Virus record (IMG/VR): IMGVR_UViG_3300028388_003330
Span: 16,203 to 80,202 of that record
Origin: a virus
DNA: 64,000 nucleotides
Reading direction: 5' to 3' (one strand)
Shown here piece by piece: positions 8,104 to 64,000 of this stretch. The position numbers were made by a program, and so were the translations under genes. The notes under the pieces were generated by a model. The model saw nothing but the letters and a program-made list of their open reading frames with translations, was not told where the DNA came from and did not search any database. The number at the start of each line of letters is the position of its first letter. Position 1 is the stretch's first letter.

Positions 8104-8897
8104 TAGCTCGCCTTGTCGAGTATCCGGCTAGCGAGTTGTGCAGGCGTCACTTCGATGACCCCGCCCATGCCAAGCGCCGTATCAACGTCAGCGTCGGACA
8201 CCCGCCAACGACGGCGGCGCACCGTCTTGCGCATGGCATCCTTCAGCGCATCGACAAAGTGCTGGCGCACGTCGGTACGAGTGAACTCTGCGGTGATGAC
8301 ATCGCCCGTCACATCAGTGATCGTCGCGTTGGCCTCCTGAATCTGGGCCTGCGCATTCTGCACCGTCACGCTAGACGCCGACACATCGACCGTGGCAACG
8401 TGAACGCCGGTACCCTGGTCGTAGGACTGCTCGGCGATGGTAATGCCCAGCGTCGTGGGGTCTTGCCCCCAGAACCCCTCCGACTTGTAGGCGTCCTGAA
8501 CGGTGATGTCGAACCGCACCTCGTTGGTCGTCGTGCTGACAACCGACGCACCCCACTTAGTGAGCCAGTTTTCCACCTGCTCGCGGGTGATGCCGTACTC
8601 ATTTGCCGCACCGGGGGTTTCGGTCCATATCCGTACCCGGACACCATCGACAGCGGCATCAGTAGCGACGATCTCGTAACCAAGTTCACGCCGCCAATCA
8701 TCGCGCCGGTCTTCTACCTGCTCGACCGTGACGCCAGGAACCTTGACGATGACGAACGTAGGCGGGCCTTCTTTACCGCCCCACTCATGCCCATCCGGCA
8801 TGACGACCACGATGTCACCCTTTTTGTAGCATCCCTGCTCGTCGGTATCCGGGTCCGGGTGGGTGGCGTCAATTGCTTTTATAAGGAATTCGGCCAT
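8103..8897 (-). CDS. Virion-block protein of unknown function, 264 aa (paralogue at 53,689)
   Basis: I do not recognise a named family. The N-terminus (MAEFLIKAIDATHPDPDTDEQGCYKKGDIV) recurs in the 266-aa protein at 53689-54489, and the two align along their whole length. Shared segments include EQV.NWL.KWGA, SEGFW and the C-terminal RRRR(W/Y)...D.DTA.GMGGV. The start is the ATG at 8897, which has TGAGGT five bases upstream and matches the start of the paralogue, rather than the in-frame ATG at 8909. It is GC-rich compared with its paralogue. It sits among fibre genes, so a virion or fibre-assembly role is plausible. Confidence 0.8.
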   Translation of the reverse strand: MAEFLIKAIDATHPDPDTDEQGCYKKGDIVVVMPDGHEWGGKEGPPTFVIVKVPGVTVEQVEDRRDDWRRELGYEIVATDAAVDGVRVRIWTETPGAANEYGITREQVENWLTKWGASVVSTTTNEVRFDITVQDAYKSEGFWGQDPTTLGITIAEQSYDQGTGVHVATVDVSASSVTVQNAQAQIQEANATITDVTGDVITAEFTRTDVRQHFVDALKDAMRKTVRRRRWRVSDADVDTALGMGGVIEVTPAQLASRILDKAS

Positions 8898-8913
8898 TTT
8901 GAACCTCAAATTA

Positions 8914-9246
8914 CTAGAATGTAATTGTACACCCTACAGTCGCACTAGTTGGCCCTGTCACTGTAAACACAGGCAAACTTAATACCGGGTTGCTTACATC
9001 TGAGACAAACGTTTGGTGAACAGCAGTGCTGTAATCGGTCCCGTCGTACCAGACGGCGCTGACGCGGTAGCTGACGCCAGCCGTCAGGCCAGAGGCGCTG
9101 AAGTTCTCGGTGCCCGATACGTCGGCCAGTTGGTTGCTGGCGTAGGTCGCGGCGTTACCGTCGGCACCCTGTCCTGCGACGATCTGCGCTGCGGTCGCCG
9201 TGCCTTGGCTGGATGGGTAGACCGAGAGGTAAAGCGTATCGGCCAT
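8914..9246 (-). CDS. Stand-alone Ig/FN3-like module, 110 aa
   Basis: The first 85 residues (MADTLYLSVYPSS...AAQIVAG...ASGLTAGVSYRVSAVWYDG) match the Ig-like modules embedded in the 1,266-aa repeat protein. The first strand of the fold is missing here and appears instead at the C-terminus of the upstream gene. The C-terminus (VTGPTSATVGCTITF) repeats that first-strand motif. The start overlaps the upstream stop as TAATG. Probably a virion decoration or fibre component. Confidence 0.75.
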   Translation of the reverse strand: MADTLYLSVYPSSQGTATAAQIVAGQGADGNAATYASNQLADVSGTENFSASGLTAGVSYRVSAVWYDGTDYSTAVHQTFVSDVSNPVLSLPVFTVTGPTSATVGCTITF

Positions 9247-10115
9247 TAGAACGTCACACCCACGGCAATATCAGCCGTGGTCTGCCCGATGTTAGTGATG
9301 ACCGGCGTGCCGAGGGTTGGGGCGTTACTGGTCGCGCCGGGGATGCTGAACAGGTAGGGTGCGTCGTTGGCTGGCTTCAGCCACGAATAGAGGTCTCTTG
9401 ATAACTGCTTGGCGACGGCAGAAGATGCCCCACGATGGTCAAGCATGAGAAACGATGCTATTTCACCATTAAACGCGGTTATAGGAGGCTCGTTTATTGC
9501 TGTCGCACCAATTTGTGCGAAAGCATCTAAATCCTGTACCTCCACGGAATGTGCGGTGTTATGAACTTCAACACCACCGACAAATGCAACAAGACAATTA
9601 TTTAAACGACCAGCGACTAAATGCTGCCACTCACCGTCACTAAAACCCGTAAATGTATAGTTTATCCCCGTGCTGTTGTGCGTAAGCGATACTCTGATAT
9701 CGTTCGACCAGTTCACCCTAGATATAACAAAAGAGTCTCCACTGTTGCTATTTATAGCAAAAATTATTCCGTTTCCGTCTCCGCCGGAGTGATTTGATTT
9801 GAATTCAACCGAAACTAAAAAATCGCCAGTAATGCTCGCCGCATAGTCTATCGGTATAGAATTATCAGAATCGTCCGCTACATCCCACGCAAACCCGCCG
9901 CTTGATGAAGTCCACGATCCAGTGGGACTTGCATACGTTTCGTTAACTTGCGCTGTGGCTAAGTCAAAGAAATCTCTTTGAAAGAGCATCGCGACCTTTA
10001 CACCGGGCACGTTTAACGCAACAGGCCCAATAGGCTTCCTTCCAGGCACCAACAAATTCGGCTCGCGCAACGCATACGCCAGTGCGGTCTGGCTGGGGAC
10101 GACTAGCTGGGCCAT
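9246..10115 (-). CDS. LamG/concanavalin-like lectin-fold virion protein, 289 aa
   Basis: Residues about 55-235 have the layout of a LamG-type jelly-roll: 'GSWTSSSGGFAWDV', 'DFLVSVEFKSN', 'DGEWQHLVAGR', 'AFNGEIASFLMLD'. Proteins with this fold often bind glycans. The C-terminus (PVITNIGQTTADIAVGVTF) is the first strand of an Ig-like module that continues in the next reading frame. Starts and stops overlap neighbours by one base (TAATG). Likely a receptor-binding or decoration protein. Confidence 0.75.
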   Translation of the reverse strand: MAQLVVPSQTALAYALREPNLLVPGRKPIGPVALNVPGVKVAMLFQRDFFDLATAQVNETYASPTGSWTSSSGGFAWDVADDSDNSIPIDYAASITGDFLVSVEFKSNHSGGDGNGIIFAINSNSGDSFVISRVNWSNDIRVSLTHNSTGINYTFTGFSDGEWQHLVAGRLNNCLVAFVGGVEVHNTAHSVEVQDLDAFAQIGATAINEPPITAFNGEIASFLMLDHRGASSAVAKQLSRDLYSWLKPANDAPYLFSIPGATSNAPTLGTPVITNIGQTTADIAVGVTF

Positions 10116-24900: not shown

Positions 24901-27900
24901 CCAAGTTCGTTTTTAAGTAACCTAACATCGCCGAACCCACCAGTGTGCATCGACCCCAGCGCAGCGCGATTGAGAGCAACAGGAACACCAGACACTCCGT
25001 CCCAATTTGCCGTATCACCAAGACCTGCGCCGTCAGTCAGTTCACTAGTGTTTGTGATGTAATTGGCGTTGAGTGCGCCCGTATAGTCGAGGTCAAGAAC
25101 GCTACCGCCAGAAAAATTGATTCCATCCCAATTTATCTTGCCGCCCGACTGCAAGACGATATTGCCAGATGAATCGCGAATCGTTATTTGCGAAAATTCT
25201 GCCGATCCAGATTTATCAATCCTCCAACCACTTGTTGGCGTGTAGTTAAGGCTTTGAATGTAATCGCCGATTTTCGCAGTGGAAATAGTGCCATCTTGTA
25301 TATAAGTTTCATCGATATATACAACGCCATTGCGAACAATAAATGGTACAGATACATCAACGCCATTCGGATCAAGAATAGAAAACTGATTCGCAAGAAT
25401 CGCCACCTCTGAACTGGTGGTTCCAGATTGATCGTTTTCAACAGAGAGACCAATACCTGCTATTGCTGTTTTTCCATCAGCGGCACGAGCTTCTACTTTT
25501 ACGGTGTATTCTGAGGAAAGAAGCCCGTCTTTATCTGCACGCGCTTTGGCTTCTCGCTGAACTGCCGCTATTCCCAAGCCGTCATAGTCCCTAAGAGCCC
25601 GACGCATACCACGAGCAACATACTCATCGTCGCTCAGGTTGTTAAGCCGCAGCATGAAAGGGGCGGTTCCTTCAAACCGCACCGGGCCGCTGTAGAGCGT
25701 CGGGTCCACGCCGCCGATATTACCAACTTCGACTTTGCCGACGTTGTCGCGAGATGCGTAGGACAGGTCGTGGGTGGCGACTACGCCCGTGGAGTCGATA
25801 ACAGTGATAACGCAGGGCTCTACTGCCGCAACAACGTAGTCAGATACGTTATGGGCAATAAGATAAGTGTCGCCCAGCATCTTCGTCGAGATAGCGGGTT
25901 CGCAGTCGCCACCGGCGCTGTCGCCAATAGCCGTAGTCTGAACGAGTCCAGGGGAAGTGATGTAGTGCGAATTGCCGAGTGATGTTTTCTCGTACGACGA
26001 GTTTACGCTGTCATAAATAACACTGGTGTAGCGCGCCGCCAGAATCTCACGCGCCATCGGCAACAGACAGGTGTAGTCACCAGCGTTACCCTCGGCGAAG
26101 GCGACGATATCCGAACTGGACTCGATAATGACAAACGCCGGTTCAGTAACCGTCGTTGACCACGTCTGCACCGTGCCGGACGGGACCGTGACCGTAGCAG
26201 TCGGCGAGCTAAAATCATACAGCGGCGTGCCAGCATTGTTTATCTTGACGACTGCAGATCCCGACACCGCATAAAAATACAAAGTTACCGGCGAATAGCG
26301 GTTGTAGTAATGCCCGAAGTATCTGCCGCAATCAGAGAATGCTGGAACCTGATCGCCGCGATCCTGTAGCTCAAACTGCGTGGGCTTGTTCGCCGTGAAT
26401 ATGTCACCAAGAGACGCGGTACGAGTGATGACACTCATCGCGTCCAGCGGGCCAGCGGTCTCTACACTGTTTTGGTAGATGTAGGTGCCGTCTTCCAGCG
26501 CTGCGATGCGAATGGTCTGGTCTCCGGAGGACCCGAGCACCACCCTTGGAGACGTAAGCGCCTGCGCATTTATATAAGAAGGTTCATCAGATCGAACATC
26601 AGTCAATGCCGAAAGCTGTTGAATAGATTCTGCTCGGGCGGTTTGTTCATCAGAGATTACATCGTCGACATAGGTAATTGAGGCTTTGAGATCAATATCA
26701 GCCTGAAGACCGTCGTCGGCAGTTTGATAATCCGTTTCCAGTTGAGAGATTGCGGTAGCTCTTGCCGTCGTTTCATTAGAGACTGCCGTGTCTACATAAG
26801 TAATAGACGCCTTCGACGATGAAAGGTCGTTATAACCCCAGTCCGAATAAACAGGAACAACCTCATAACCTGCGGGTGTGTAGGTATGATCACCAATCGC
26901 ATCTGCAACAGCATCTTGGCGAGTATCGATCCAGCTATTACCTACAACGCCATAGACTGAAACCTGTACTCGACCAGCAATTTCTTTGGCGTTTTCCAGA
27001 TTCAGTACATAAATGGTTGTCTTGTTTGCTGTTGGGTCATGATAGACCGCCAACCGATCTGGAATTTCTACATCATTGCGCCAACGATATACAGCGGTTC
27101 CTACAAACGTACCAATACCGTCATGTACAAGACCGTTACTGTTTGTAAAAACAGAAATATCAACGTCTGCTGAATTATCTTGGCGACCAGCCCTTGTACC
27201 GTAACGGACGCGACCAGATAGAGCTAGTCCGTGATAATTACCGGTATTTGTATACTCAAATATCTTAAACGCCGCTGTTGTGCCACTGCCGTTATGAATC
27301 TTTAGATCAACGTTATAAACCGTTTCAACTGCAGGTAGCGAAACCTTATCAAAATCACCAATGGGCACACCGTTCTGCAGATCGGTAACATCATCGGCGA
27401 TAAGAGAATCGGCAGCTTTATAATCAGCGTCTAACTGCGACAACGCCGTGGCGCGAGCCTGCTGCTCATCAGAAATTACATCGTCGACATAGGTAATTGA
27501 TGCTTTGGCATCAATATTGGTCTGAAGACCTGCGTCAGCAGCTTTGTAATCGGTATCTAACTGCGTCAACGCTGTCGCACGAGCCTGCTGCTCATCAGCG
27601 ATTGCATCATCGACATAGGTAATCGACGCTCTGGTATCGATAGCGTAATCGGCGGTAGCGTCTTCCAGCATTATTGCGCCGACTTCCGTTGTTCCTGCTA
27701 CACCGCCATAGTTGGCAATGAAAACGGGACGCATATAGCGAACGTTTTCGTGAGCAAGATGCGGGGCCTCTGCTGTGCTAGCGCCCGAATAATCTCCAAG
27801 CGGCGAGCCGTACCCTTTGGTATAACCGGTAATAACTTCCCAAGTTGCTGCTATGGTGCTTTTACCACCGCCAGTGGTGTGATAGTGCTGATTGTTGAAA

Positions 27901-30900
27901 ACGTTATCGCCATTGATGTTGACATACGTCGTTCCATCGGACGCAATGCCCTCAAAACCCGCGTAGAAAGTACCGGTTCCAGCCGTCCTACGAATAATAA
28001 CGGTCCATTTATAGATACGCTCTGGATCAAACGGAATTAGGCTGTTATGAGCCAACCAGTGAAGATCATCGCCCGAGTTATCACCGATTCTTAGAAACTT
28101 ACCGCCCATATAGCTATCAGCGGCGGTTTGAATCGATAGCTCCCCAGTTCCTTGTCTGGTGATCCAGTAATTCAAGGCATTGGCGTCTTCCCAAGTTTCT
28201 TGGAAAATGAGATTGCCGGAGTTTGACGCCGTCGCTTCAAGCGCTTGGATTGCCTGAGTGTGCGAACTTAAAGTGCCTGCTTGATCAATATAAACTGTCG
28301 TTTCTAGGTTATCGATAGCCTGAGCGCTAGCACTAAGACCCGTTTCCGAGTCGTCAATTGACGCCTGAACAGCATCTAGACGATTGGCGTTAGCAACGAC
28401 GCCTCTTTCACTATCTTCTACCGTCGTTTCAAGATCGCTAATAGCAATAGAATGCGCTGCTACAGCGTCGCCAAGACTGGAGTAATCACCGATTTTCGTC
28501 CAGTAAGCGGTATCGGTAGGAAGAGGCGAAGGTGGAAAAACAGCCGTCGTATCCTGAATACACCGATAAAGCGAACCGTTGTAAGCAACGATATCGTCTA
28601 CAAAATATTCAGTATTCGCATCAAAATCAGGCGTACCTTCAAGCGCCGCCACTTGAGTCTGGAGAGTATCTACCGCGCCCTCTAGGTCTGTCGTTCTATC
28701 GTCAAGACCGGTAGTAGGCGTATCAATTAAATTAATTCTGCTATTGAGCGAAGCGGTTAATTCGCTCTCTGAAATCTGACCCTGAAGATCGGCTAATGTA
28801 ATACCGAAGTCTTCAATGACGACACTAACCTCAGAGCTAAACGTTAGATTGTCTTTGCCCCAAATGTCATACGCCGCAACACGGACATACCAAGTTTCAC
28901 CGTTATTGGCGGTTATCAGACAACCATTGCCAGTACCTTCATATACCTTGTTTGTATTTATATTTGGAGTAAAGCCAATGGTTTGAGATGCGCAAACGAT
29001 ATATCCGCCAACATCAACATCGCCTACACGATCCCAGCCAGCAGCATACTGCGTCTCAGCGTTATTAACGAAAAGATTGCTTGGCGCAGAACTAATCTGC
29101 GGGTTCGTAACGATAATACTTGCGGAGCTACCAGTGGTTCCGCTATAGAGTCTAGCTTTAACCCTAACCGTGATTGAACGATTAATCTGTCCGTCGTTCT
29201 GAGCATCCGCCCATGTATAGGTGTAAGACGGATCTCCAGTGTATGAAATTCGAACAACGGCTGAATTGATTTCAACCTGAACCTCGTAGTCGTAAGCCTC
29301 TTCCAGCTCGTCCCAGCGAACCGTAAAGCGATCCGAAATGAACGGACTTACCAGACCAAGATTCTGAACCTGACCGGGCGGGGCAACTTGAGTGCCGTTA
29401 ACAGCGTTAAAATCACTATAAACGCCATCTGTAGTTACTGCTTTAACCCAATAAAAATAACTGATGCCCTGATTAACTGCGGCATCTGTGAAAGTCGCCT
29501 CTTTTGTACGTCCTATTTCTACCGCCGTACCGTTATCATCACTGGCACTGCGATAAACAACGATTTCGTCGTATATGCCTGTTGGCGGCGTCCAACTAAG
29601 GCTAACGATTGTTCCAATTGCAGTCGCAGTAAGGTTTGTAGGCGTAGTTACATCTGGGCGCGCAGTAGAACTAAACGCGATGGTTGGCGCACCAGCAAAA
29701 GTGGCCCGACGACCAACAATGTCAAAAGCAACGACCTTAAAGAAGACAGAAACGCCAACAGGGATGCGATGACGATACTCCAATGTCCGCATATCAACCT
29801 GACCAACCTTCTCGTAAGGTGCGCCATCAACGGACATATGAATATCTGCACCGCCATAAACACCTGAAGCGGGATACGACCAATACAGATTTGCAACAGG
29901 AAGATAGCTGTTACCTATCTTCTCATATTCTTGGTAGACGCCTAGATCAACAACCTGCCCAATCTGTTGAGGTGCCTCATATATAGGCAACTCAATATTA
30001 TTGTCAACATTATATATTGCCGAATTATACTCAATGGCCCGGATTGTACGAACTTCATGACCAGAACCATTAATTGCAATAACGCGAAATGGACGCTTGA
30101 CTAGGGTAACCGGCCCTAGCATAAATTTTGCGTATTTTGGAGGGGCTGAACCTAACGACGAGGCTACGGTTACCGATGATGTTAAACCCGGCGCGTTTGT
30201 AATATCTCGCTCAATTATTACATCAGTATCGTAAATAGTATAATCATGACCAGCAACGATACCAATGGTGTTTTCTATTTCAACACCATAATTTCCAGAT
30301 CCGTCATCATATACAACGCGACGAATTCGATGATCAACGCCGTTAATAACAGCGCGTGTTACGTTGGTATTGCCGTCATAACTGTTCAACCATACAATGC
30401 CGCCTCCTACTGCTACGCCAGACACCGTACCGGTTGCGCGAGAAATCTTGTCGTAATTAATAAGCAGTCGGTAAGTAATACCGTCTAGTAACTCAACCTC
30501 TTGATCAAGGTTAACAACACTAACCGTGGAATTCGCTTCCAGCCGACCGCTGTACTCCCAATTCGGGAGATTATGCTGTACAAGTATCTGACTACCAACC
30601 GTACAAGCAATAGACTCTACCGGCGCATCAAACGTAATGCTTTTGGTAATGTACTTGTTTAAGTTAAGTTGAAATACCGCCTCATTAACGGCTTGTTGTT
30701 TATCGGTACAACCAAATAACGTTATCCTTGCCGTTTTTACGTCATCAGTTGGCAAAAGAGATGGGTCGCGAACCTTTAATGTGGTTCTTTCATAATCGTT
30801 TTCTGAATCAAAGTAGGTAACTTCGATTTCATTTGCCCTGTCAGTCATGGGCAACCAAGTCATCTTAAATGACTTCTCGACAATGTTACCTACGTTGAAC

Positions 30901-52325: not shown

Positions 52326-52580
52326 ATGGCTGTAAAAAGAGTCACTTTCCCCATCACCGAAGAACGGCACGCCGAGCTGAAGTCGATTGCCAAAAGTCAT
52401 GGCGTGAATTTCGTCGATATGATGAGCGACATCGTCAACCAGCTTCCGCTAGAAGACCCAATAATGAGTCAGATACTCGACAACGTTACCCGAGCGAAGA
52501 AGCATCGGCAGCAACTTGCCGAAAAACTCACCGAAACCTATTCAGAGGCAGAACTGGAACGAATCCTTAAGGGGCTGTAA
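52326..52580 (+). CDS. Small ribbon-helix-helix-like protein, 84 aa
   Basis: The N-terminus 'VKRVTFPITEERHAELKSIAKSHGVNFVDMMSDIVNQL' has a strand followed by two helices as in RHH DNA-binding proteins. The C-terminus is a charged helix. AGGAGCGGATCA precedes the ATG. An AT-rich stretch just upstream (52270-52305) could hold a promoter, though with sub-optimal spacing. It may regulate the plus-strand genes. Confidence 0.65.
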   Translation: MAVKRVTFPITEERHAELKSIAKSHGVNFVDMMSDIVNQLPLEDPIMSQILDNVTRAKKHRQQLAEKLTETYSEAELERILKGL

Positions 52581-53688: not shown

Positions 53689-54489
53689 ATGGCTGAATTT
53701 CTCGTTAAAGCGATTGACACCACGCACTCAAATCCAATCATCAACGAACAAGGGTGTTTTAAGAAGGGCGATATTGTTCAAGTTCAACCCAACAATCATC
53801 AATGGGGTGAAGCAGAAGGTTTACCCTCTTTTGTCATCGTTAAGGTGCCAGAGCTTGATCATAATCTTGTTCTGAATCGCATGAACAAGTGGGAAAAAAC
53901 CGTCAGTGTGAACGTGATTCAATCAGATCCCGTTCTTGACGCCGCCAGGGTGAGTGTGTCGGTTGATTTGCCCGGTGCAAGCAACAAGTACGCCATCACA
54001 CTGGAACAAATTCAGACATGGTTGAAAAAATGGGGCGCAACCATTTATTCCGCTGCTGAAAACGAAATTATTTTCGATATCAAAGTCAAAGACGCCTACA
54101 TGTCTGAAGGCTTCTGGAATCGAAACCCCGCCGCTTACAATATTTCAATAACCGAAATTGATTACGACCAAGAAACCTACACGCATACAGCAGAAATCGA
54201 CGTGTTTTCTTCTCAGGTGTATTTTGGCGAAATTGAACGCATCGTTTCAGTCAAAGGCGGTACCGTTGTAAACATTTACGATGACCTTATTACCGTCAAA
54301 TTCACTCGGTATGAAATCAGAACCGCCTTCGCAGAGGATCTACGCAACCTCATGAAAGGAATTATTCGCCGCCGCCGCTATAAGTTTACCGAAGAAGACG
54401 TAGATACAGCAGTAGGTATGGGCGGTGTGGTTGAGCTGACCACCGAACAACTCGCTACACATCTAATCGACAAAGCCAACGAATCATAA
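53689..54489 (+). CDS. Paralogue of the fibre-block protein at 8,103-8,897 (266 aa)
   Basis: MAEFLVKAIDTTHSNPIINEQGCFKKGDIV at the N-terminus and 'IIRRRRYKFTEEDVDTAVGMGGVVELTTEQLATHLIDKA' at the C-terminus mirror the minus-strand gene at 8.1 kb. Middle segments 'WLKKWGA' and 'SEGFWNRNP' also align. It is much more AT-rich than that copy and lies on the opposite strand, directly after a tRNA gene and away from all virion genes. Start ATG with AAGGT upstream. Function unknown for both. Confidence 0.8.
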   Translation: MAEFLVKAIDTTHSNPIINEQGCFKKGDIVQVQPNNHQWGEAEGLPSFVIVKVPELDHNLVLNRMNKWEKTVSVNVIQSDPVLDAARVSVSVDLPGASNKYAITLEQIQTWLKKWGATIYSAAENEIIFDIKVKDAYMSEGFWNRNPAAYNISITEIDYDQETYTHTAEIDVFSSQVYFGEIERIVSVKGGTVVNIYDDLITVKFTRYEIRTAFAEDLRNLMKGIIRRRRYKFTEEDVDTAVGMGGVVELTTEQLATHLIDKANES

Positions 54490-56243: not shown

Positions 56244-56488
56244 TGGACAGGTTCCTTGTTGACTACAAGCGCAAGCTGATTAGGAGAGAAAAAATGATCG
56301 AACCAACGTGGGTTTGCAAAGAATGTGGCGAGAAGTGCCGTGCCGTGGAGGTTACGTTTGACTACGCCGGTACCCACTGCACACATGGTCAACGTGGTAC
56401 CCATCATACGGGTACCTATGTCAGTGACTGCTGCGGTACCGACTTTGCAGAATATGATCCGGAGGAAGCAGATGCCGAGTTATCGTGA
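56243..56488 (+). CDS. Small zinc-ribbon protein, 81 aa
   Basis: The start is the ATG at 56243 (TGATG overlap). Residues about 25-65 carry VCKECGEKC, then CTHGQRGTHHTG and SDCCG, enough Cys and His for one or two zinc sites. The sequence resembles the short zinc-ribbon proteins often encoded in phage early regions. The acidic C-terminus (EYDPEEADAEL) overlaps the next gene's ribosome site. Confidence 0.7.
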   Translation: MDRFLVDYKRKLIRREKMIEPTWVCKECGEKCRAVEVTFDYAGTHCTHGQRGTHHTGTYVSDCCGTDFAEYDPEEADAELS

Positions 56489-57805: not shown

Positions 57806-58327
57806 TTAGAAGTTACGAAATAGCGGATGATTCCAGTCTACTGTTATTTCGTTTCCTTTAGCAGGAGTCTTTTTAGTTCCAGAATTTGTTAAGGAAACGA
57901 AAGTTGCGAAATATCCAGCCTGCGTGATTGTAGTATGTCCAAAGATAGACTGTAAACGCTGATACGTCCATTTACTTTCCTTTCCGTTTTTCTCTACATG
58001 CATGCGCAAGCTATCTAGCGTTTTTTCCGTTACATTTCCGGAGTGTGCATGTTTAGTATATGCGATCAAGCGCTTATAGAATTCTCTACTTTGCGCTTCC
58101 GAAAGTTGATTAATTTCCTTCCATTGGAAGGAAACATTGTCCACGAGGAACTGCAATTCCGCGTCGCTTAAGCGCGCTGTAAGCGCTTGTAACGCGCGTT
58201 CGATTGTCGAGTAATGCTGCAACGTGGATTCCTTCACGCTATCGTCACTGATCGCAAGCGTAAGCGCGATAGTTCCAAGTTTATTAGCGCTTTTCGTAAT
58301 GATCGATTTAAGAGTAGAAGTTTTCAT
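57806..58327 (-). CDS. Hypothetical helical protein, 173 aa
   Basis: Unrecognised, mostly helical ('YSTIERALQALTARLSDAELQFLVDNVSFQWKEINQLSEAQSREFYKRLIAY'), with 'KWTYQRLQSIFGHTTITQAGYF' suggesting a possible winged or HTH end. AAGGAAACG precedes the ATG. The leader contains ACTCACT 17 nt before the start, like the other genes of this region, and a GTAAGC-TTTTT-GCTTAC hairpin at 58356-58372. It is followed upstream by the 17-bp repeat array, so it is a candidate for a protein acting on that array. Confidence 0.7.
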   Translation of the reverse strand: MKTSTLKSIITKSANKLGTIALTLAISDDSVKESTLQHYSTIERALQALTARLSDAELQFLVDNVSFQWKEINQLSEAQSREFYKRLIAYTKHAHSGNVTEKTLDSLRMHVEKNGKESKWTYQRLQSIFGHTTITQAGYFATFVSLTNSGTKKTPAKGNEITVDWNHPLFRNF

Positions 58328-58472
58328 TAGCGTTTCCTTATATAGTGAGTGTAACGTAAGCTTTTTGCTTACACTTATAATGATAGACTGCCTGCAATTT
58401 TATGCAAGCTTTTTTGCAAAATTTTATGCGACACTTTTTTTGTCGTTTTTAAAATCGAAAGTACAGCGCGAT

Positions 58473-58642
58473 AAGAACCACTCTCGTTTGCGAACCACTA
58501 TCAACTGCGAACCACTCTCGTTTGCTAATCCCCCACAAATGCGAACCACCCGCCAATGAGAACCACCCGCGCCCGCAAACGGCCCACAAATGCGGGCGGC
58601 CCACGGTTGAGGGCGGCCCACGGCTGCGAACGGCCCGCATTT
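58473..58642. repeat. Ten tandem 17-bp degenerate repeats (iteron-like)
   Basis: Contiguous 17-bp units with consensus GCGAACCRCCCRCNNNT: 58473, 58490, 58507, 58524, 58541, 58558, 58575, 58592, 58609 and 58626 are the unit starts. Units drift from AT-richer (left) to GC-richer (right). Seventeen is not a multiple of three, so it is not a coding repeat. Reads as a multi-site protein-binding array, perhaps an origin. The 533-bp gap 58328-58860 otherwise holds CCATGG sites and a terminator. Confidence 0.82.
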
Positions 58643-58769
58643 CCCACGGGAGCGCCCGGTACCCTGGAGGCCCTCTGGGCAGCCGCACCCTATGGCCTCG
58701 CCATAGCCTTTCGCATGGGCTTCCCATGGCGCTTTAAACGACAAAATTCCGGGCTTTAATGAGCCTTTC

Positions 58770-58785
58770 CCATGGCATCCCATGG
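58770..58785. promoter_or_regulatory. Paired CCATGG site 1
   Basis: CCATGGCATCCCATGG: two palindromes whose starts are exactly 10 bp apart, one helical turn. Preceded by AGCCTTTCC, as is site 3. Further single CCATGG copies at 58724 and 58803. Located between the terminator of the 58861-59061 gene and the iteron array. Confidence 0.6.
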
Positions 58786-58825
58786 TGAACGTTCCAACCG
58801 CCCCATGGTTTTATTAATAAATTAA

Positions 58826-58850
58826 TAAAACGGGGCTTCCTTGCCCCGTT
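58826..58850 (-). terminator. Intrinsic terminator after the 58,861-59,061 gene
   Basis: Minus strand: AACGGGGC, AAGGAA, GCCCCGTT followed by TTATT. Starts 11 nt after the stop codon of the gene. The following AT-rich palindrome (TTTTATTAAT/ATTAATAAAA) adds a second hairpin. Confidence 0.8.
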
Positions 58851-58860
58851 GTTTGTGTGA

Positions 58861-59061
58861 CTACCTCCAATCGTCCTTGTGGGGCTTGTCACGACGGCGC
58901 ATGGGCTCGACTTCCGGCATGTCCTCATACTGGTCGAAACCCAGATAATCCATCCATCCGGTACGAACTGGCTGGATCGTGATTTCTTCTGCGGGGAGTT
59001 CTTCCACCAGAACTGCGTCGGTCAGCAGTTGGTCGAATTCTTCGTTAATGCGGTTTTTCAT
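58861..59061 (-). CDS. Hypothetical protein, 66 aa
   Basis: Acidic N-terminal half, basic C-terminus (RRRDKPHKDDWR). No recognised family. AAGGAGAGCC precedes the ATG, ACTCACT lies 20 nt upstream, a shared promoter motif is at 59119-59147 and an intrinsic terminator follows, so it is a complete single-gene unit. Possibly an early host-takeover protein, by size and location only. Confidence 0.7.
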   Translation of the reverse strand: MKNRINEEFDQLLTDAVLVEELPAEEITIQPVRTGWMDYLGFDQYEDMPEVEPMRRRDKPHKDDWR

Positions 59062-59118
59062 TATGGCTCTCCTTACGGTCAGTGAGTGGTTGAAGCGCTA
59101 TCTCTAGCGTTCAATGAC

Positions 59119-59147
59119 AGTATGGAGCGCCCTATATGGGGTTTCTA
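59119..59147 (-). promoter_or_regulatory. Shared promoter-like motif, copy 1
   Basis: Minus strand: TAGAAA (59147-59142), 17 nt, CATACT (59124-59119). The same layout with similar spacer sequence occurs before two other genes (60297-60325, 61210-61238). The gap 59062-59258 also holds CCATGG at 59155 and 59200. Confidence 0.5.
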
Positions 59148-59258
59148 CAAAACCCCATGGCGTTTGAAAAAGCCCGTATTAGTTTTTACGAAGTAAAAAC
59201 CATGGGAACGCCGTATAAGATCCGGCTATAGGCCGGAATTGGAGAAACGTGGTCTGTT

Positions 59259-59489
59259 TTACATTACGTCTGCGGCGAACAATTCATGATTGTCCACCCA
59301 GCGTTGCCCCACTCTCGCAATACGCTCACGATCCCAGAACTCGCCGCTGAGTTCATACATGTCCGCTACTAACCATTCTCCCGAGAGATGGACATCATGC
59401 ATGAACAACACCAAACGCCAGTCAAAGCCAATGCGTTCAATGGCATACTTGCGGGGCGAGACATGTACACGATCTTGAAAATCCATCAT
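59259..59489 (-). CDS. Hypothetical protein, 76 aa
   Basis: Unrecognised. Alternating Arg/Asp/Trp-rich sequence ('YAIERIGFDWRLVLFMHDVHLSGEWLVADMYELSGEFWDRERIARVGQRW') suggests a small alpha/beta fold. CAGGAGAACCACC precedes the ATG at 59489. ACTCACT lies about 17 nt upstream. No strong terminator follows, only a TCCGGC/GCCGGA stem at about 59220-59237. Confidence 0.7.
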   Translation of the reverse strand: MMDFQDRVHVSPRKYAIERIGFDWRLVLFMHDVHLSGEWLVADMYELSGEFWDRERIARVGQRWVDNHELFAADVM

Positions 59490-59585
59490 GGTGGTTCTCC
59501 TGTGCAGTGAGTTAGCAAGTTAATTATCCGACACGCCCTGCGGCATGTCCGTGGGTTCAAAACAACCCCACGGCAAAGCGAAGCT

Positions 59586-59611
59586 CTGTAATCGTTTCTA
59601 AGCGCTTCCCA
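59586..59611. repeat. 26-bp exact direct repeat, copy 1
   Basis: CTGTAATCGTTTCTAAGCGC followed by TTCCCA, identical to 63103-63128. It contains the palindrome AAGCGCTT. It lies in the 303-bp gap 59490-59792, which also holds a CCATGG (59738) and the terminator of the next gene. Confidence 0.8.
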
Positions 59612-59752
59612 GAGTCAGTCAGTAGTGAGATAGCACTCCAGTTGAGAAAACGTCTGGTAGACGCTCTCAGCGTCTCTCAGCGCATTCCCCAGATCCAATC
59701 TTTGCTGCATTCCGGACTCCAGCAGGAAAATCCAGCCCCATGGCGCGTCAAA

Positions 59753-59783
59753 CAAACAAAAAACGCCCCAGCAAGTGGGGCGT
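59753..59783 (-). terminator. Intrinsic terminator after the 59,793-60,245 gene
   Basis: Minus strand: ACGCCCCA, CTTGC, TGGGGCGT followed by TTTTTGTTTG. Strong 8-bp stem and T-tract beginning 10 nt after the stop. Confidence 0.88.
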
Positions 59784-59792
59784 CGATGGCGA

Positions 59793-60245
59793 TCAGTAGA
59801 TGATCGGACAGGCGGGGTTTTCCAGGTTGTGGATGTTCTGCGGACACCCCGTCATGGAATCCATGAAAAACTGAAGGTGACTCAGTCGTGACTTACCGTT
59901 CTTGCGATCAAAAGCGGCTTGCAGCGTCCGCGCGTAATCCAGCGGCAGGTGGTCGAACATCACTTCGCGGATCTCATCCCCCATTCCGAACATTGCGTGG
60001 CGGTTGTCCTCGTCGCGGACATTCCACACGCGGTTCAGACACAATCCGCGATCTTTGACGGGATAGATGTCGTAACGGACGGTGGTGTAAACATCGTCGA
60101 TGTGATTCACCAGCGCGTCGAATTCGTTCATCACGCCGCGCATCCACGCGGCTTCGATGTCTGGGTCTTGGATGTCCATGTCTTCCTCAATGGCGCGCAT
60201 TTCGTCGATCAGCAGAAAAAGGCGATTCGTGAGATTCAGGTTCAT
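59793..60245 (-). CDS. Hypothetical protein, 150 aa
   Basis: The ATG at 60245 with CCGGAGATTGACC upstream; a TTG two codons earlier is rejected. Acidic, helical ('LLIDEMRAIEEDMDIQDPDIEAAWMRGVMNEFDALVNHIDDVYTTVRYD'), with a polar C-terminus containing two Cys. No recognised family. Stand-alone unit: shared promoter motif at 60297-60325, ACTCACT leader and strong terminator. Confidence 0.72.
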   Translation of the reverse strand: MNLNLTNRLFLLIDEMRAIEEDMDIQDPDIEAAWMRGVMNEFDALVNHIDDVYTTVRYDIYPVKDRGLCLNRVWNVRDEDNRHAMFGMGDEIREVMFDHLPLDYARTLQAAFDRKNGKSRLSHLQFFMDSMTGCPQNIHNLENPACPIIY

Positions 60246-60296
60246 GGTCAATCTCCGGTAGTGAGTGTGGTCGTCGGAAACGTTTCCGACAGATTC

Positions 60297-60325
60297 AGTA
60301 TGACGCAGCCCTTATGGCGTTTCTA
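60297..60325 (-). promoter_or_regulatory. Shared promoter-like motif, copy 2
   Basis: Minus strand: TAGAAA (60325-60320), 17 nt, CATACT (60302-60297), 52 nt before the 60245 start codon. Spacer 'CGCCATAAGGGCTGCGT' resembles copy 1. Confidence 0.5.
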
Positions 60326-60455
60326 TAAGCTTCCGGAGATTCCCATGGCCTCGCGCGCGCGGTTTTTTTCTTCTTTTTTTTAAAAAAATGGTTTTAGAAG
60401 GTTATTACTAGAGGAAGCGTCGGAGTTGCCCGTGTTTCCTTATAGAAAGCCATTA

Positions 60456-60485
60456 TTAGTATTATTAATTTATTAATAATACTAA
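60456..60485. repeat. 30-bp AT-rich palindrome
   Basis: TTAGTATTATTAAT (60456-60469), TT, ATTAATAATACTAA (60472-60485): perfect 14-bp arms. Flanked on both sides by TGCCCGTGTTTCCTTATA direct repeats (about 60427 and 60509). Located in the 350-bp gap 60252-60598, which otherwise holds CCATGG at 60343, 60531 and 60541 and a terminator. Confidence 0.75.
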
Positions 60486-60530
60486 AACCCCTTCGGAAAA
60501 CGAAAAACTGCCCGTGTTTCCTTATACAAG

Positions 60531-60546
60531 CCATGGGACGCCATGG
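60531..60546. promoter_or_regulatory. Paired CCATGG site 2
   Basis: CCATGGGACGCCATGG: two palindromes with a 10-bp start-to-start distance, as at sites 1 and 3. Lies just past the terminator of the upstream gene. Confidence 0.6.
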
Positions 60547-60561
60547 TGAATCCTCCGGAAT

Positions 60562-60588
60562 GAAAAAGCGGGGCTCGGAAGCCCCGCT
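60562..60588 (-). terminator. Intrinsic terminator after the 60,599-61,150 gene
   Basis: Minus strand: AGCGGGGC, TTCCGA, GCCCCGCT followed by TTTTC. Stem of 8 bp, T-tract, 10 nt after the stop codon. Confidence 0.88.
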
Positions 60589-60598
60589 GTGTGGATGA

Positions 60599-61150
60599 TT
60601 AGCTCTGGTAGAGCGACTTCAGATCAGCCAACGTCTTGTTTTCCGGGTCCAGACGCACCTCCCAGACGCCTTTTCCGATCTTGTTAACCTCGGAAGCGAT
60701 GCCCAGGAACTTGAACGCCGTCTTCATGTAGTTCGCTTGCGTTGGCGTCTGATGCTGCGCCTCGCGCTGCATGTCCATCGTCGTGAGGCGTTCCGCGTTC
60801 TTCGCCACGATGAACTGGATCACGGCGTCCAGTGCGCGGTCGGAGAGTTCCGATCCGTTTCCAACCGCCTCCAGGATCGCAACGGTGCGCTTCTTCAGCT
60901 CTCGGCTCTGCGATTCGATCTCCGAGGCTTTCGCTGCTCCCAACTGCTCCAGCGCGTACTTGATAGCGGCGTCGGACATCTCCGCCAGCTTCATGTCGAA
61001 GTTGGCGTGCGTGAGCTGGGTCTTCACGCGATCCTGCTCGCGCTTCGTGGCGTCCTCCGGAAGCGCCTGACGAATGGAATCCGCGCGATCCGCGCGCACA
61101 AGCGCCTCATCCTGAAAGTACGAGCGAAAGCCGGTCATGGATTTTTTCAT
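60599..61150 (-). CDS. Hypothetical helical protein, 183 aa
   Basis: Unrecognised, all-helical and highly charged ('RADSIRQALPEDATKREQDRVKTQLTHANFDMKLAEMSDAAIKYALEQLGAAKASEIESQSRELKKRTVAILEAV'), with a small C-terminal 'KIGKGVWEVRLDPENKTLADLKSLYQ'. CAGGAGATTCACC precedes the ATG. ACT-CACT-like leader 21 nt upstream, promoter motif at 61210-61238, terminator downstream. Likely an abundantly expressed cytosolic phage protein. Confidence 0.72.
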   Translation of the reverse strand: MKKSMTGFRSYFQDEALVRADRADSIRQALPEDATKREQDRVKTQLTHANFDMKLAEMSDAAIKYALEQLGAAKASEIESQSRELKKRTVAILEAVGNGSELSDRALDAVIQFIVAKNAERLTTMDMQREAQHQTPTQANYMKTAFKFLGIASEVNKIGKGVWEVRLDPENKTLADLKSLYQS

Positions 61151-61209
61151 GGTGAATCTCCTGTGTTGCCAGTGAATGTGTGCCTCGTCAGCAACGCGCT
61201 GACATCTAT

Positions 61210-61238
61210 AGTGTGGACGAGCGCCTGTGGTAAATCTA
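61210..61238 (-). promoter_or_regulatory. Shared promoter-like motif, copy 3
   Basis: Minus strand: TAGATT (61238-61233), 17 nt, CACACT (61215-61210). Less perfect than copies 1 and 2 but same spacing and a similar GGCGCTCGTC spacer end. The 350-bp gap 61151-61501 also holds CCATGG at 61301, 61325, 61338, 61429 and 61439. Confidence 0.45.
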
Positions 61239-61428
61239 CGTCACCAGTGAGTTACCGCCTGTTTCCCATTTTTGTCGTTTTCTGGGGAAAACCACGGCTC
61301 CCATGGGAATTCCCGCAGCGGTTCCCATGGCTTTTTCCCATGGTCATGCCGCCCGTTTCCCTCGCCTTATTAGGAGCCTCGCCGATTATCATAGGCCGAA
61401 CCATAGGGCCGTTTACCAAAGCCTTTCC

Positions 61429-61444
61429 CCATGGCACGCCATGG
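61429..61444. promoter_or_regulatory. Paired CCATGG site 3
   Basis: CCATGGCACGCCATGG with 10-bp start-to-start distance, preceded by AGCCTTTCC as at site 1. Just past the terminator of the 61502-61819 gene. Confidence 0.6.
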
Positions 61445-61457
61445 CAGAAAATTTTGC

Positions 61458-61482
61458 AAAAAAATGCCTGCAAAAGCAGGCA
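61458..61482 (-). terminator. Intrinsic terminator after the 61,502-61,819 gene
   Basis: Minus strand: TGCCTGC, TTTT, GCAGGCA followed by seven Ts. Located about 20 nt after the stop. Confidence 0.87.
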
Positions 61483-61501
61483 AAAACACTCACTCACCAG
61501 G

Positions 61502-61819
61502 TTAAAGTCCCATTAGCAATATCTTTTCCCCGTATGTTCGTAGATAGTTGGTGACTGTTCCGCAGCCTTCATCCCGTGCTCCATTGACTGTTCGTTGTGC
61601 AATTTGGTCAATGAGAGTCTCATCGGAATAAGGTGATTTTGCGTTTGATAGCCACATTCCACCGTTCTGATGCTTGATTACCAGTCGTACCGGAAAGCAG
61701 ATCCATTCAAATACCGTATCGTCCTGGCGAACATCCACATCGATATCCACCACTTCCGTACAGAGCATCCCAACTCCAGTCAATTGGGTGTCCGCCATAC
61801 TGATCATTACTCGCCTCAT
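61502..61819 (-). CDS. Hypothetical protein, 105 aa
   Basis: ATG at 61819 with GGAGGGAAAAA upstream. Strand-rich ('LTGVGMLCTEVVDIDVDVRQDDTVFEWICFPVRLVIKHQNGGMWLSNAKSPYSDETLIDQIAQ'), with a helical C-terminus. No recognised family. Followed by a strong terminator. The AT-rich leader has no clear promoter; candidates such as AATACT at about 61855 lack a good -35. Confidence 0.7.
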   Translation of the reverse strand: MRRVMISMADTQLTGVGMLCTEVVDIDVDVRQDDTVFEWICFPVRLVIKHQNGGMWLSNAKSPYSDETLIDQIAQRTVNGARDEGCGTVTNYLRTYGEKILLMGL

Positions 61820-62029
61820 TTTTTCCCTCCAGCGCGTTCACTTGCTTGAAATAAGTATTGATCAAATACAAAGGCAAATCAGCAACTTGCCATGGCTTAT
61901 AGGAAAAAATCAAAAAACGCCATATGCGTATTCGCCTGCGGCCGGAATTAGGGAAACCCCTATTTGCCATAGGCGAATTAACCCAAAAGCCTTGTTTTAT
62001 TCTCTCTCTGGTGTTCCGCCTCCCGCTTA

Positions 62030-62340
62030 CACTTGAGAGACTTGGTTACAGGCTTGGTTACAGGCTTGGTTACACTTGATTACTGCGGTTAAGAGGGTTT
62101 GATTACTTGGTTACACTTGGTTACTGCTCTTGAAGGACTTGGGAGACTTGGAAGGCTCTTCTCTTTGGTTTCTTCTCTTGGGAGACTTGATGGAGCTTAC
62201 TGGTTACTGCTCTTGAAGGACTTGGGAGCTTCTGAGGGCTTTTGTGTGGCTTTAACTGCTTCTTACTGGTTTCTTCTCTTTGATTTCTTCCTTGGTTTCT
62301 CCTTACCTCTCTCCTTACTTGATTCTTATTCCCTTGGTTG
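62030..62340. repeat. Low-complexity region with CTTGGTTAC and CTTGGGAG repeats
   Basis: About 300 bp dominated on the plus strand by T, G and C. CTTGGTTAC recurs about five times between 62030 and 62130, and 'GCTCTTGAAGGACTTGGGAG' appears twice (about 62125 and 62208). TTCTTCTCTTTG recurs near the end. No convincing gene exists in 61820-62425. A leucine-rich plus-strand frame here lacks a ribosome site. Possible binding array, origin-like DNA or non-coding RNA. Confidence 0.65.
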
Positions 62341-62386
62341 AATTATTTTGCTCATGACCGTGTGGTTCTGGACATTAGTCATTACA

Positions 62387-62418
62387 CGGTTCATTCCTTT
62401 GAACCGTTGTTTCTTCTG
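62387..62418 (+). terminator. Weak plus-strand terminator-like hairpin
   Basis: ACGGTTCA (62387-62394), TTCCTT, TGAACCGT (62401-62408), then TGTTTCTTCT. If functional it would end a plus-strand transcript of the low-complexity region. On the minus strand no U-tract follows, so it would not end the 62426-62734 gene. Confidence 0.35.
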
Positions 62419-62425
62419 GAAAATC

Positions 62426-63102: not shown

Positions 63103-63128
63103 CTGTAATCGTTTCTAAGCGCTTCCCA
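63103..63128. repeat. 26-bp exact direct repeat, copy 2
   Basis: Identical to 59586-59611. Here it lies in the leader immediately upstream of the ribosome site of the small basic gene. Confidence 0.8.
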
Positions 63129-63712: not shown

Positions 63713-64000
63713 TTAGAAGGCTTGTGCGTTGATTCCGAGAGCGGAAGTCACCTTGTGGAGGCTTTTTCCAGTAGGTAGAACACGCCCCGTTTCCCAACGC
63801 CAAATTGCGGACATGGACACATCGGCGCGCTTTGCGAGCCGTTCGCGAGTCCAGTTCTTTTTCATCCGCGCCAGCAGAATTTGCTTACCAATTTCGTGAA
63901 TGTCGAAAGCGTTCTGGGGGTTGAAGATTTCGTTGGATTCACCGAACTCCAAATTGGTTTGCTGGGTAAGTTCCGCTGGGGTTTCGTCAATCTCCAGAAT
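63713..64000 (-). CDS. XRE-type helix-turn-helix regulator, N-terminus cut by window edge
   Basis: The frame is open to the window edge. The visible 95 residues include an acidic lead (ILEIDETPAELTQQTN) and a Cro/CI-type HTH: 'IGKQILLARMKKNWTRERLAKRADVSMSAIWRWETGRVLPTGKSLHKVTSAL'. This family binds operator palindromes as dimers. It is the only classical repressor-type protein in the region with the CCATGG palindromes. The true start lies outside the window; the in-frame TTG at 63952 is not convincing. Confidence 0.8.
   Translation of the reverse strand: MLEIDETPAELTQQTNLEFGESNEIFNPQNAFDIHEIGKQILLARMKKNWTRERLAKRADVSMSAIWRWETGRVLPTGKSLHKVTSALGINAQAF

Follow-up and report, generated by a model that had tools for sequence, protein, structure and literature searches.

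Clustered CCATGG sites in intergenic DNA of an uncultivated virus: a putative helically phased binding platform and a candidate winged-helix reader

The CCATGG block and its gene neighborhood

The stretch of DNA analyzed here, hereafter the window, comprises 64,000 nucleotides (nt) of an uncultivated virus (IMG/VR record IMGVR_UViG_3300028388_003330, positions 16203-80202 of 80,202 bp), and the element in question is a block of sixteen CCATGG palindromes lying between small genes. An initial annotation made from the letters alone had listed sixteen start positions from 58724 to 61890, placed all of them outside the five genes of the region, described three pairs with a 10-bp start-to-start distance and proposed an operator family for one dimeric regulator. 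All sixteen positions proved exact (Table 1), and the spacers of the three pairs (CATC, GACG and CACG) fit the consensus SAYS that had been given for them. In the region used for gap statistics (58328-62425; 4,098 nt, of which 2,337 are intergenic and 1,761 belong to the five genes between 58861 and 61819), 16 of 16 sites are intergenic, a confinement that alone has P ~1.3e-4. The gaps are expected to hold 0.51 copies under a first-order Markov model, with a maximum of 4 in 1,000 simulations, and thus contain CCATGG at about 30 times expectation; the runner-up among all 64 palindromic hexamers reaches 4 copies in the same gaps. Under random placement within the gaps, three neighboring pairs at exactly 10 bp have P ~2e-4.

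The window-wide number of sites is hardly raised, and the clustering is what stands out. There are 21 exact copies in the window compared with 12.5 in shuffles, 4 of 100 shuffles reaching 21. Only five copies lie outside the cluster (5637, 21506, 21568, 42632 and 53687), three of which (5637, 21506 and 42632) had already been named as examples of scarcity elsewhere. The complete record has 22 copies, 16 of them in this one block. A caution is that the reversed control word, GGTACC, also gives three tight pairs in the same record. Four copies of GGTACC were seen inside 72 bp of one small gene (window 56369-56440, copies at 56369-56435).

Table 1. CCATGG sites and genes of the block, in window coordinates.
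Feature	Coordinates	Strand	Remark
173-aa paralog of the 183-aa protein	57806..58327	-	BLASTP E 1e-7 to the 183-aa protein
CCATGG site	58724..58729		exact match, intergenic
Phased pair CCATGG-CATC-CCATGG, 10-bp pitch	58770..58785		exact match
CCATGG site	58803..58808		exact match
66-aa open reading frame between site-bearing gaps	58861..59061	-	no PHROG match
CCATGG site	59155..59160		exact match
CCATGG site	59200..59205		exact match
76-aa open reading frame between site-bearing gaps	59259..59489	-	no PHROG match
CCATGG site	59738..59743		exact match
152-aa open reading frame between site-bearing gaps	59793..60251	-	no clear family
CCATGG site	60343..60348		exact match
Phased pair CCATGG-GACG-CCATGG	60531..60546		exact match
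183-aa X-like orphan protein, candidate reader	60599..61150	-	remote similarity to family X
CCATGG site	61301..61306		exact match
CCATGG site	61325..61330		exact match
CCATGG site, 13 bp past the 61325 site	61338..61343		exact match
Phased pair CCATGG-CACG-CCATGG	61429..61444		exact match
105-aa open reading frame between site-bearing gaps	61502..61819	-	no family found
CCATGG site	61890..61895		exact match

The sites had also been placed between the terminator of one gene and the promoter of the next, and the first half of this fits several of the gaps. Terminator-like stems lie at 58829-58850, 59762-59784, 60567-60588 and 61465-61482, the region having 13 compared with 8.1 in shuffles, while a promoter scan of the region gave 6 hits against 5.7 in shuffles and so no excess.

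Several other features of the neighborhood were recorded. About ten degenerate 17-bp tandem repeats of the type GAACCACYCNCNNNTGC, iteron-like in appearance, occupy 58472-58640 and adjoin the CCATGG block. Two similar AT-rich palindromes lie at 58808-58831 and 60456-60485, a 21-nt element, TGCCCGTGTTTCCTTATA.AA, occurs twice in one gap (60427-60447 and 60509-60529) and is possibly promoter-like, and an exact 26-nt repeat, CTGTAATCGTTTCTAAGCGCTTCCCA, is found near small genes at 59586-59611 and 63103-63128. Elsewhere in the window, the genes at 8103-8909 and 53689-54489 are paralogs 45 kb apart (46% identical over 264 amino acids, aa), and a small ribbon-helix-helix-like protein, weakly ParG-like (E 0.11), is encoded after a helicase gene at 52326-52580. 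A ParA search of the window's record found none.

Phased CC-NN-GG units in relatives

Capsid and terminase genes place the window phage with the SSU5/nickie-like group, which we take to be phage-plasmids; among the capsids found in cellular genomes, those of Ectothiorhodospira (79% identical) and a Piscirickettsiaceae metagenome-assembled genome (78%) come nearest. Clusters of CCATGG occur in the phages RHph_N1_10, RHph_N1_15, RHph_Y2_11 and RHEph10, in plasmids of two Methylobacterium, Pararhizobium and Shinella, and likewise in many metagenomic contigs, where they adjoin genes of a protein family that we call X. For the comparison of X with tight CCATGG pairs given below, sixty-two relatives were chosen, mainly for length, from the records behind 160 loci (G and L numbers below are our handles for records and loci). 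Many of the loci are related, with B1VFA/V1VFA-S/X66, L248/L249, L258/L261 and L277/L278/RHEph10 near-identical, and totals over them are not independent.

In eight annotated stretches of the CCATGG type, intergenic DNA holds 79 sites in 21,596 nt (3.66/kb) and coding DNA 26 in 69,224 nt (0.38/kb), a count from which another Shinella stretch (with 5 sites in gaps and 3 in genes) and five of the CCTAGG/CCAAGG kind are omitted. Coding DNA of these stretches does not share the density of the gaps; a similar density in coding DNA was what the initial annotation had named as speaking against its proposal. The gene tables of the annotated plasmids are incomplete and some of the intergenic DNA may contain unlisted genes; counts based on greedily called open reading frames were set aside because spurious frames occupied the gaps. 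Where the word is CCTAGG, the ratio of intergenic to coding sites is 10/0 in RHph_X66, 9/0 in V1VFA-S, 9/0 in B1VFA and 6/0 in pRlX6. The element pLM21S1, stated to be a phage-plasmid in the available part of its description (PMC5537653), has 11 CCAAGG/CCTTGG compared with 2.0 expected.

In the three records for which every site was seen, namely the window's own, RHph_N1_10 and G036, roughly half of the sites or more fall in a single block. In RHph_N1_10, 12 of 27 CCATGG lie in the block at 7054-9407, eleven of these being fully intergenic and the site at 7543 overlapping the annotated start of X1, and 60-109 kb contains none. The G036 block (27081-30141) holds 18 of 33. In MN988505.1, four CCATGG outside the X block (86, 39940, 48416 and 115392) fall on annotated start codons, an ordinary context.

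The flank profile of CCATGG, with CC and GG at -10/-9 and -6/-5, led us to reject it as the whole motif; the unit is CC-NN-GG, repeated every 10-11 bp with as many as seven units in a run (L245). Among adjacent spacings (30 loci, 435 sites), 10 bp was counted 33 times, 11 bp 11 times, 20 bp 18 times and 22 bp 13 times, and the spacings of 12-19 bp 18 times altogether. Around 419 CCATGG (29 loci), CC..GG is found 150 and 63 times at offsets 10 and 11, 83, 31 and 43 times at 20 to 22 and 48 and 39 times at 30 and 31, against a background that averages 17.4 per offset between 50 and 90 bp, and its best period is 10.7. The paired spacing noticed in the window is thus conserved in relatives. The control set of the offset analysis was left unused because it contained an X-adjacent stretch (L186, G041) and the weak-X-like records G022 and G024. 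Runs of at least three units number 46 in 22 chosen loci compared with 0.15 in mononucleotide shuffles.

The same phasing was obtained from 57 X-adjacent stretches, with 388 CCNNGG pairs at 10-11 bp versus 182 over the six offsets 13-18, a 6.4-fold excess per offset that is seen in 52 of the 57. Away from X any excess is small, the corresponding counts being 2 vs 5 (RHph_N1_10, 60-109 kb), 3 vs 1 (RHph_N1_10, 30-60 kb), 0 vs 2 (B1VFA, 1-36 kb) and 1 vs 1 (window, 1-57000). Phasing is present in CCTAGG- and CCAAGG-type loci too, and the spacers (203 of four bases, 71 of five) are nearly free, with weak preferences. A regular helical pitch combined with nearly free spacers suggests a protein on DNA; such a pattern would not be expected of an RNA, of a simple repeat or of sites that an enzyme acts on.

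The gaps that hold the sites are mostly not those with promoters. In 13 annotated stretches, tandem gaps contain 83 clade-word sites (17,446 nt, 32 gaps, 4.8 per kb), convergent gaps 27 (5,967 nt, 14 gaps, 4.5 per kb) and divergent gaps 7 (6,334 nt, 12 gaps, 1.1 per kb); ten of the twelve divergent gaps are empty and both of those with sites lie upstream of X1. No site in the tandem gaps lies wholly inside the final tenth before the start codon. Convergent gaps contain no promoter of a flanking gene. Because tandem and convergent gaps are filled and divergent gaps mostly avoided, the sites are probably not ordinary promoter operators, and the proposal of an operator family survives only in that the words are binding-site-like, phased and conserved. 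Among five close relatives compared pairwise, sites in the two gaps downstream of X1 were kept in 23 of 37 and 16 of 19 comparisons, where other hexamers were kept at 0.21 and 0.42 (background retention means are unweighted averages).

Family X and the center of the unit

Family X was found as the common neighbor gene in three of the densest records (G046, G036 and G003). A profile search found it in 16 of 49 records, and a scan of viral contigs with the X alignment gave 42 loci. Pfam and PHROGs returned nothing convincing for X. The model of the X core (L248, 200 aa; mean predicted local distance difference test score, pLDDT, 95.9) has a C-terminal winged helix, and comparison with winged-helix structures gave Z 7-9, including MarR/ArsR types, TubR (3m9a, Z 7.0) and a pNOB8 protein (4rs8, Z 7.0). 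No winged-helix protein stands out among these matches, the Z values are ordinary for the fold, and a Foldseek search with X gave no match at E<=0.001. In the alignment of 40 rows, T158 and Q159 are invariant and S161-S162 nearly so, forming a TQ.SS motif in the predicted recognition helix.

Among 63 records searched for both, tight CCATGG pairs (within 36 bp) occur in 13 of 17 records with X (E<=1e-10) but in 3 of 42 records without X (E<=0.001), a difference with a Fisher value of 2.5e-7 in a statistic that ignores relatedness. The window's own record was excluded from the X group and counted among the records without X. Since E-values of window proteins against profiles containing window rows are circular, a profile without those rows was used. 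The four weak-X records (G020, G037, G038 and G060) have 0, 1, 3 and 4 tight pairs, respectively. Among the four strong-X exceptions, G058 has 21 CCAAGG/CCTTGG versus 3.3 expected, and the one examined of G005, G006 and G009, which appear to be a single Acinetobacter lineage, has four CCTAGG within 2.4 kb of X. The reversed control pattern gave no pairs in the 17 strong-X records, the three described above being in the window's own.

The X-like proteins of the window were compared with the family by profile. With hhalign, the 183-aa protein resembles family X at P 0.0036 singly, and a five-member group consisting of the 183-aa and 173-aa proteins and proteins in G024, G022 and G060 does so at P 7e-5 (probability 63%); none of these proteins passes by itself, and the 173-aa protein alone has no significant match to X. 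The two window proteins resemble those of G024, G022 and G060 at E 1e-8 to 3e-4. In G060 a CCATGG cluster lies ~2 kb from the X-like protein, and in G022 four CCATGG lie ~0.5 kb upstream of it. A structure search with the model of the window protein gave weak VIA rows (best Z 5.9), and a peptide scan of viral contigs for close relatives of two proteins found none. As a paralog of the 183-aa X-like protein, the protein at 57806 is also a possible reader.

The central dinucleotide of the unit differs between clades of X. In A/T-clade units (21 loci, n=311 phased) the center is AT in 47% and TA in 1%, whereas in K-clade units (10 loci, n=139 phased) it is AA/TT in 27%, GC in 20%, AC/GT in 19%, TA in 19% and AT in 6%. 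Placing the enriched word on an X tree required 11 changes, compared with a shuffled mean of 17.9, and none of 200 shuffles was as low; the tree consists of 43 X rows and omits L249, L255, L267, L282, L284, L285, L287 and others. The word appears to follow the X tree, and shared descent alone would give some of that. Among the 42 X loci, CCATGG is the most enriched hexamer in 15 and within the top three in 18, CCTAGG is top in 3 and second in 1, and TAGCTA is top in 4.

Two further words were observed near X. TAGCTA has an 8-bp pitch (L259, L262, L263 and L238; 42 sites, both directions, with offset 8 counted 22 times) and could perhaps be a second array system and candidate ParA/ParG centromere. 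L257 (G017) has nine CTATAG near X, next to its CCATGG cluster. Both look like words separate from CC-NN-GG.

Proposed function, alternatives and comparison with known systems

The reading that we favor overall, with about even confidence given the sequence patterns above, is that the block may be a cis-acting assembly platform of CC-NN-GG units. That the units constitute a putative phased protein-binding platform is quite probable. A sequence-specific protein would read single units and pack cooperatively on neighbors at a distance of one helical turn, all on the same face of the DNA, and the platform would occupy spacers that mostly follow genes and keep clear of divergent promoters. The candidate reader is family X, which is encoded inside the block and would contact DNA through its C-terminal winged helix and TQ.SS recognition-helix motif; we predict that X reads the arrays and regard this as evenly balanced. 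The resulting X-DNA patch might serve the phage-plasmid as a centromere-like structural site present once per replicon; a close second is that the X block locally controls itself. A centromere-like role is our first choice, tentative as it is, because a structural site would explain better than a regulon both the one main block in each of the three fully seen records and the rarity of sites in divergent gaps. It is possible, though doubtful, that a CC-NN-GG platform read by winged-helix X is a segregation or replication-control site across the phage-plasmid group and that residues of the helix set the unit. The TQ.SS helix would then fix the outer CC/GG and the variable residue between Q and S would partly set the central dinucleotide: apart from exceptions, A/T accompanies CCATGG in most clades, and the main K clade pairs K with TA or AA/TT.

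A number of results weigh against this reading. The window has three phased pairs only, its block gives 3 CCNNGG pairs at 10-11 bp versus 4 over 13-18 (too few on their own), and CCATGG-only copies of the offset analysis peak at a period of 9.0, just above 10.8. Six stretches from phages that lack a clear X also showed weak phasing (9 pairs at 10-11 vs 15 over 13-18, 1.8-fold). X does not accompany every array. A triple CCATGG array was seen in 20 contigs, of which 9 gave an X match and 11 did not, and none of 7 contigs from an earlier pair pattern gave one, although several of those lacking X are fragments of small size or simple tandem repeats of 10 bp. Similarity between X and the X-like proteins of the window is remote: the profile built without window rows misses them (G000, the window's record, E 0.01), and AlphaFold2 modeled the 183-aa protein poorly (pLDDT 59), so that a winged-helix fold is not reliable there. 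With regard to the center, no clear word could be assigned to 12 of the 43 rows of the tree, and a word other than CCATGG, CCTAGG or TAGCTA leads in 20 of the 42 X loci. L258 and L262 share an identical helix segment (TQKSSTMTALKTLGI) and differ in their enriched words (CCTAGG and TAGCTA), L247 combines K with CCATGG, and L283 and L286 combine A with CCTAGG. Upstream of X1, sites were kept at 14 of 41 versus 0.31 among the five close relatives, about the background rate, and in G043 there are two clusters, with a copy of X next to each.

The alternatives differ in which protein, if any, is assigned to the arrays. Local control is also a possibility, if a doubtful one: bound to the arrays in a stoperator-like manner, X or a partner would keep the X block silent or insulated and prevent transcription from running on from one of its small genes into the next. 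It would account for sites in gaps after genes, convergent gaps included, both upstream and downstream of X1, and for words that shift with clade along with X, as the motifs of Cluster A repressors and stoperators do according to the available portion of that work (PMC6550527). However, the sites are concentrated in one block and not genome-wide (12 of 27 within 2.4 kb in RHph_N1_10), the units are symmetric and phased while stoperators are 13-bp sites of mostly one orientation, and 10 of 12 divergent gaps carry no site. A centromere of a ParA system, read by a ribbon-helix-helix protein beside ParA and not by X, is rather unlikely. Ribbon-helix-helix proteins favor short palindromes read in one groove, a ParA-type match lies ~1-7 kb from an X gene in many relatives, and the ParA partner in RHph_N1_10 weakly matches RHH_10 and ParG, both under the curated cut-off. 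Yet no ParA was found in the array-bearing records G000, G003 and G060, uncultivated records that may all be fragments and of which G000 at least is one, a result that counts against X in a centromere-like role as well; ParA-type matches are present in records without tight CCATGG pairs (G012, G014, G019, G021 and G023), and the TAGCTA words would make an equally good candidate centromere.

A single repeat-rich intergenic block with phased sites, adjoined in the window by the iteron-like 17-bp repeat, could also be a lytic replication origin with phased initiator sites, but RepC is ~50 kb away in RHph_N1_10 and the piecewise GC skew of that phage shows no clear turning point at the block, making this improbable. 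A word serving restriction, methylation or packaging, or the drift of a simple repeat, is very unlikely, although CCATGG is a known restriction site and the reversed word GGTACC forms a small local cluster within a gene of the window's own record. Coding DNA of the annotated relatives is unenriched (0.38/kb vs 0.31/kb calculated at G+C 0.58), and phasing with nearly free spacers would be useless to an enzyme and argues against a simple repeat. Methylation, raised in the initial annotation as an alternative, is unlikely at least for pLM21S1, whose authors, in the available part of their report, found no DNA methyltransferase gene (PMC5537653). Least credible of all are promoter operators for the XRE-type protein at 63713, which had been put forward as the regulator. 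This helix-turn-helix protein is encoded 1.8 kb from the last site, but no relative of it was found in any of the 16 other array-bearing records searched, some of them fragments, and site placement does not track promoters.

The favored platform of CC-NN-GG units, with X as its candidate reader, would combine an unannotated protein family and a cis element in a widespread phage-plasmid group, for which RHph_N1_10 and RHEph10 are named test phages. We found no description of such arrays or of X in the literature searched, whose coverage largely excludes subscription journals, and no paper linking CCWWGG with bacteriophage; the available portions of the pLM21S1 and RHEph10 literature do not mention such arrays. 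The cis element and family X are thus apparently undescribed. If X reads the arrays, the clade-specific centers would be natural pairs of protein and site for deriving a recognition code, and the arrays would allow concrete tests of the ways in which such elements are passed on or controlled.

Several known systems share parts of this picture. The recombination directionality factors Xis, Cox and Apl of phages lambda, P2 and 186 bind cooperatively to sites one helical turn apart (10-11 bp for Apl) and tolerate poor sites, which we count as a likeness, as far as the available text goes (PMC7498355); a spacing of about one helical turn is seen in the arrays of relatives as well (offsets 10-11, 20-22 and 30-31). 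The sites of these proteins are described, in the text available, as direct repeats at att or promoters, whereas CCNNGG is often palindromic and the arrays have a dozen or more units per block in gaps without promoters, and no sequence relation was seen between X and Xis/Cox/Apl. Cluster A stoperators are likewise numerous, with a motif that changes by clade with the repressor, but they are, in the portion of the study available, 20-30 sites of 13 bp spread genome-wide in mostly one orientation (PMC6550527), unlike the arrays here, which are not dispersed; that portion says nothing of helical phasing. Type Ib ParA/ParG systems resemble the arrangement in several of these phages, in which ParA and a weakly ParG-like protein are neighbors, and differ in that the arrays lie kilobases from parA and occur also where no ParA was found. 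The likeness to TubR is that of a winged-helix centromere-binding protein that forms a superhelical complex on tubC, according to the available part of its description (PMC9178275), and TubR and the centromere-binding protein of the pNOB8 AspA system are both among the structure matches of X, at scores ordinary for the fold.

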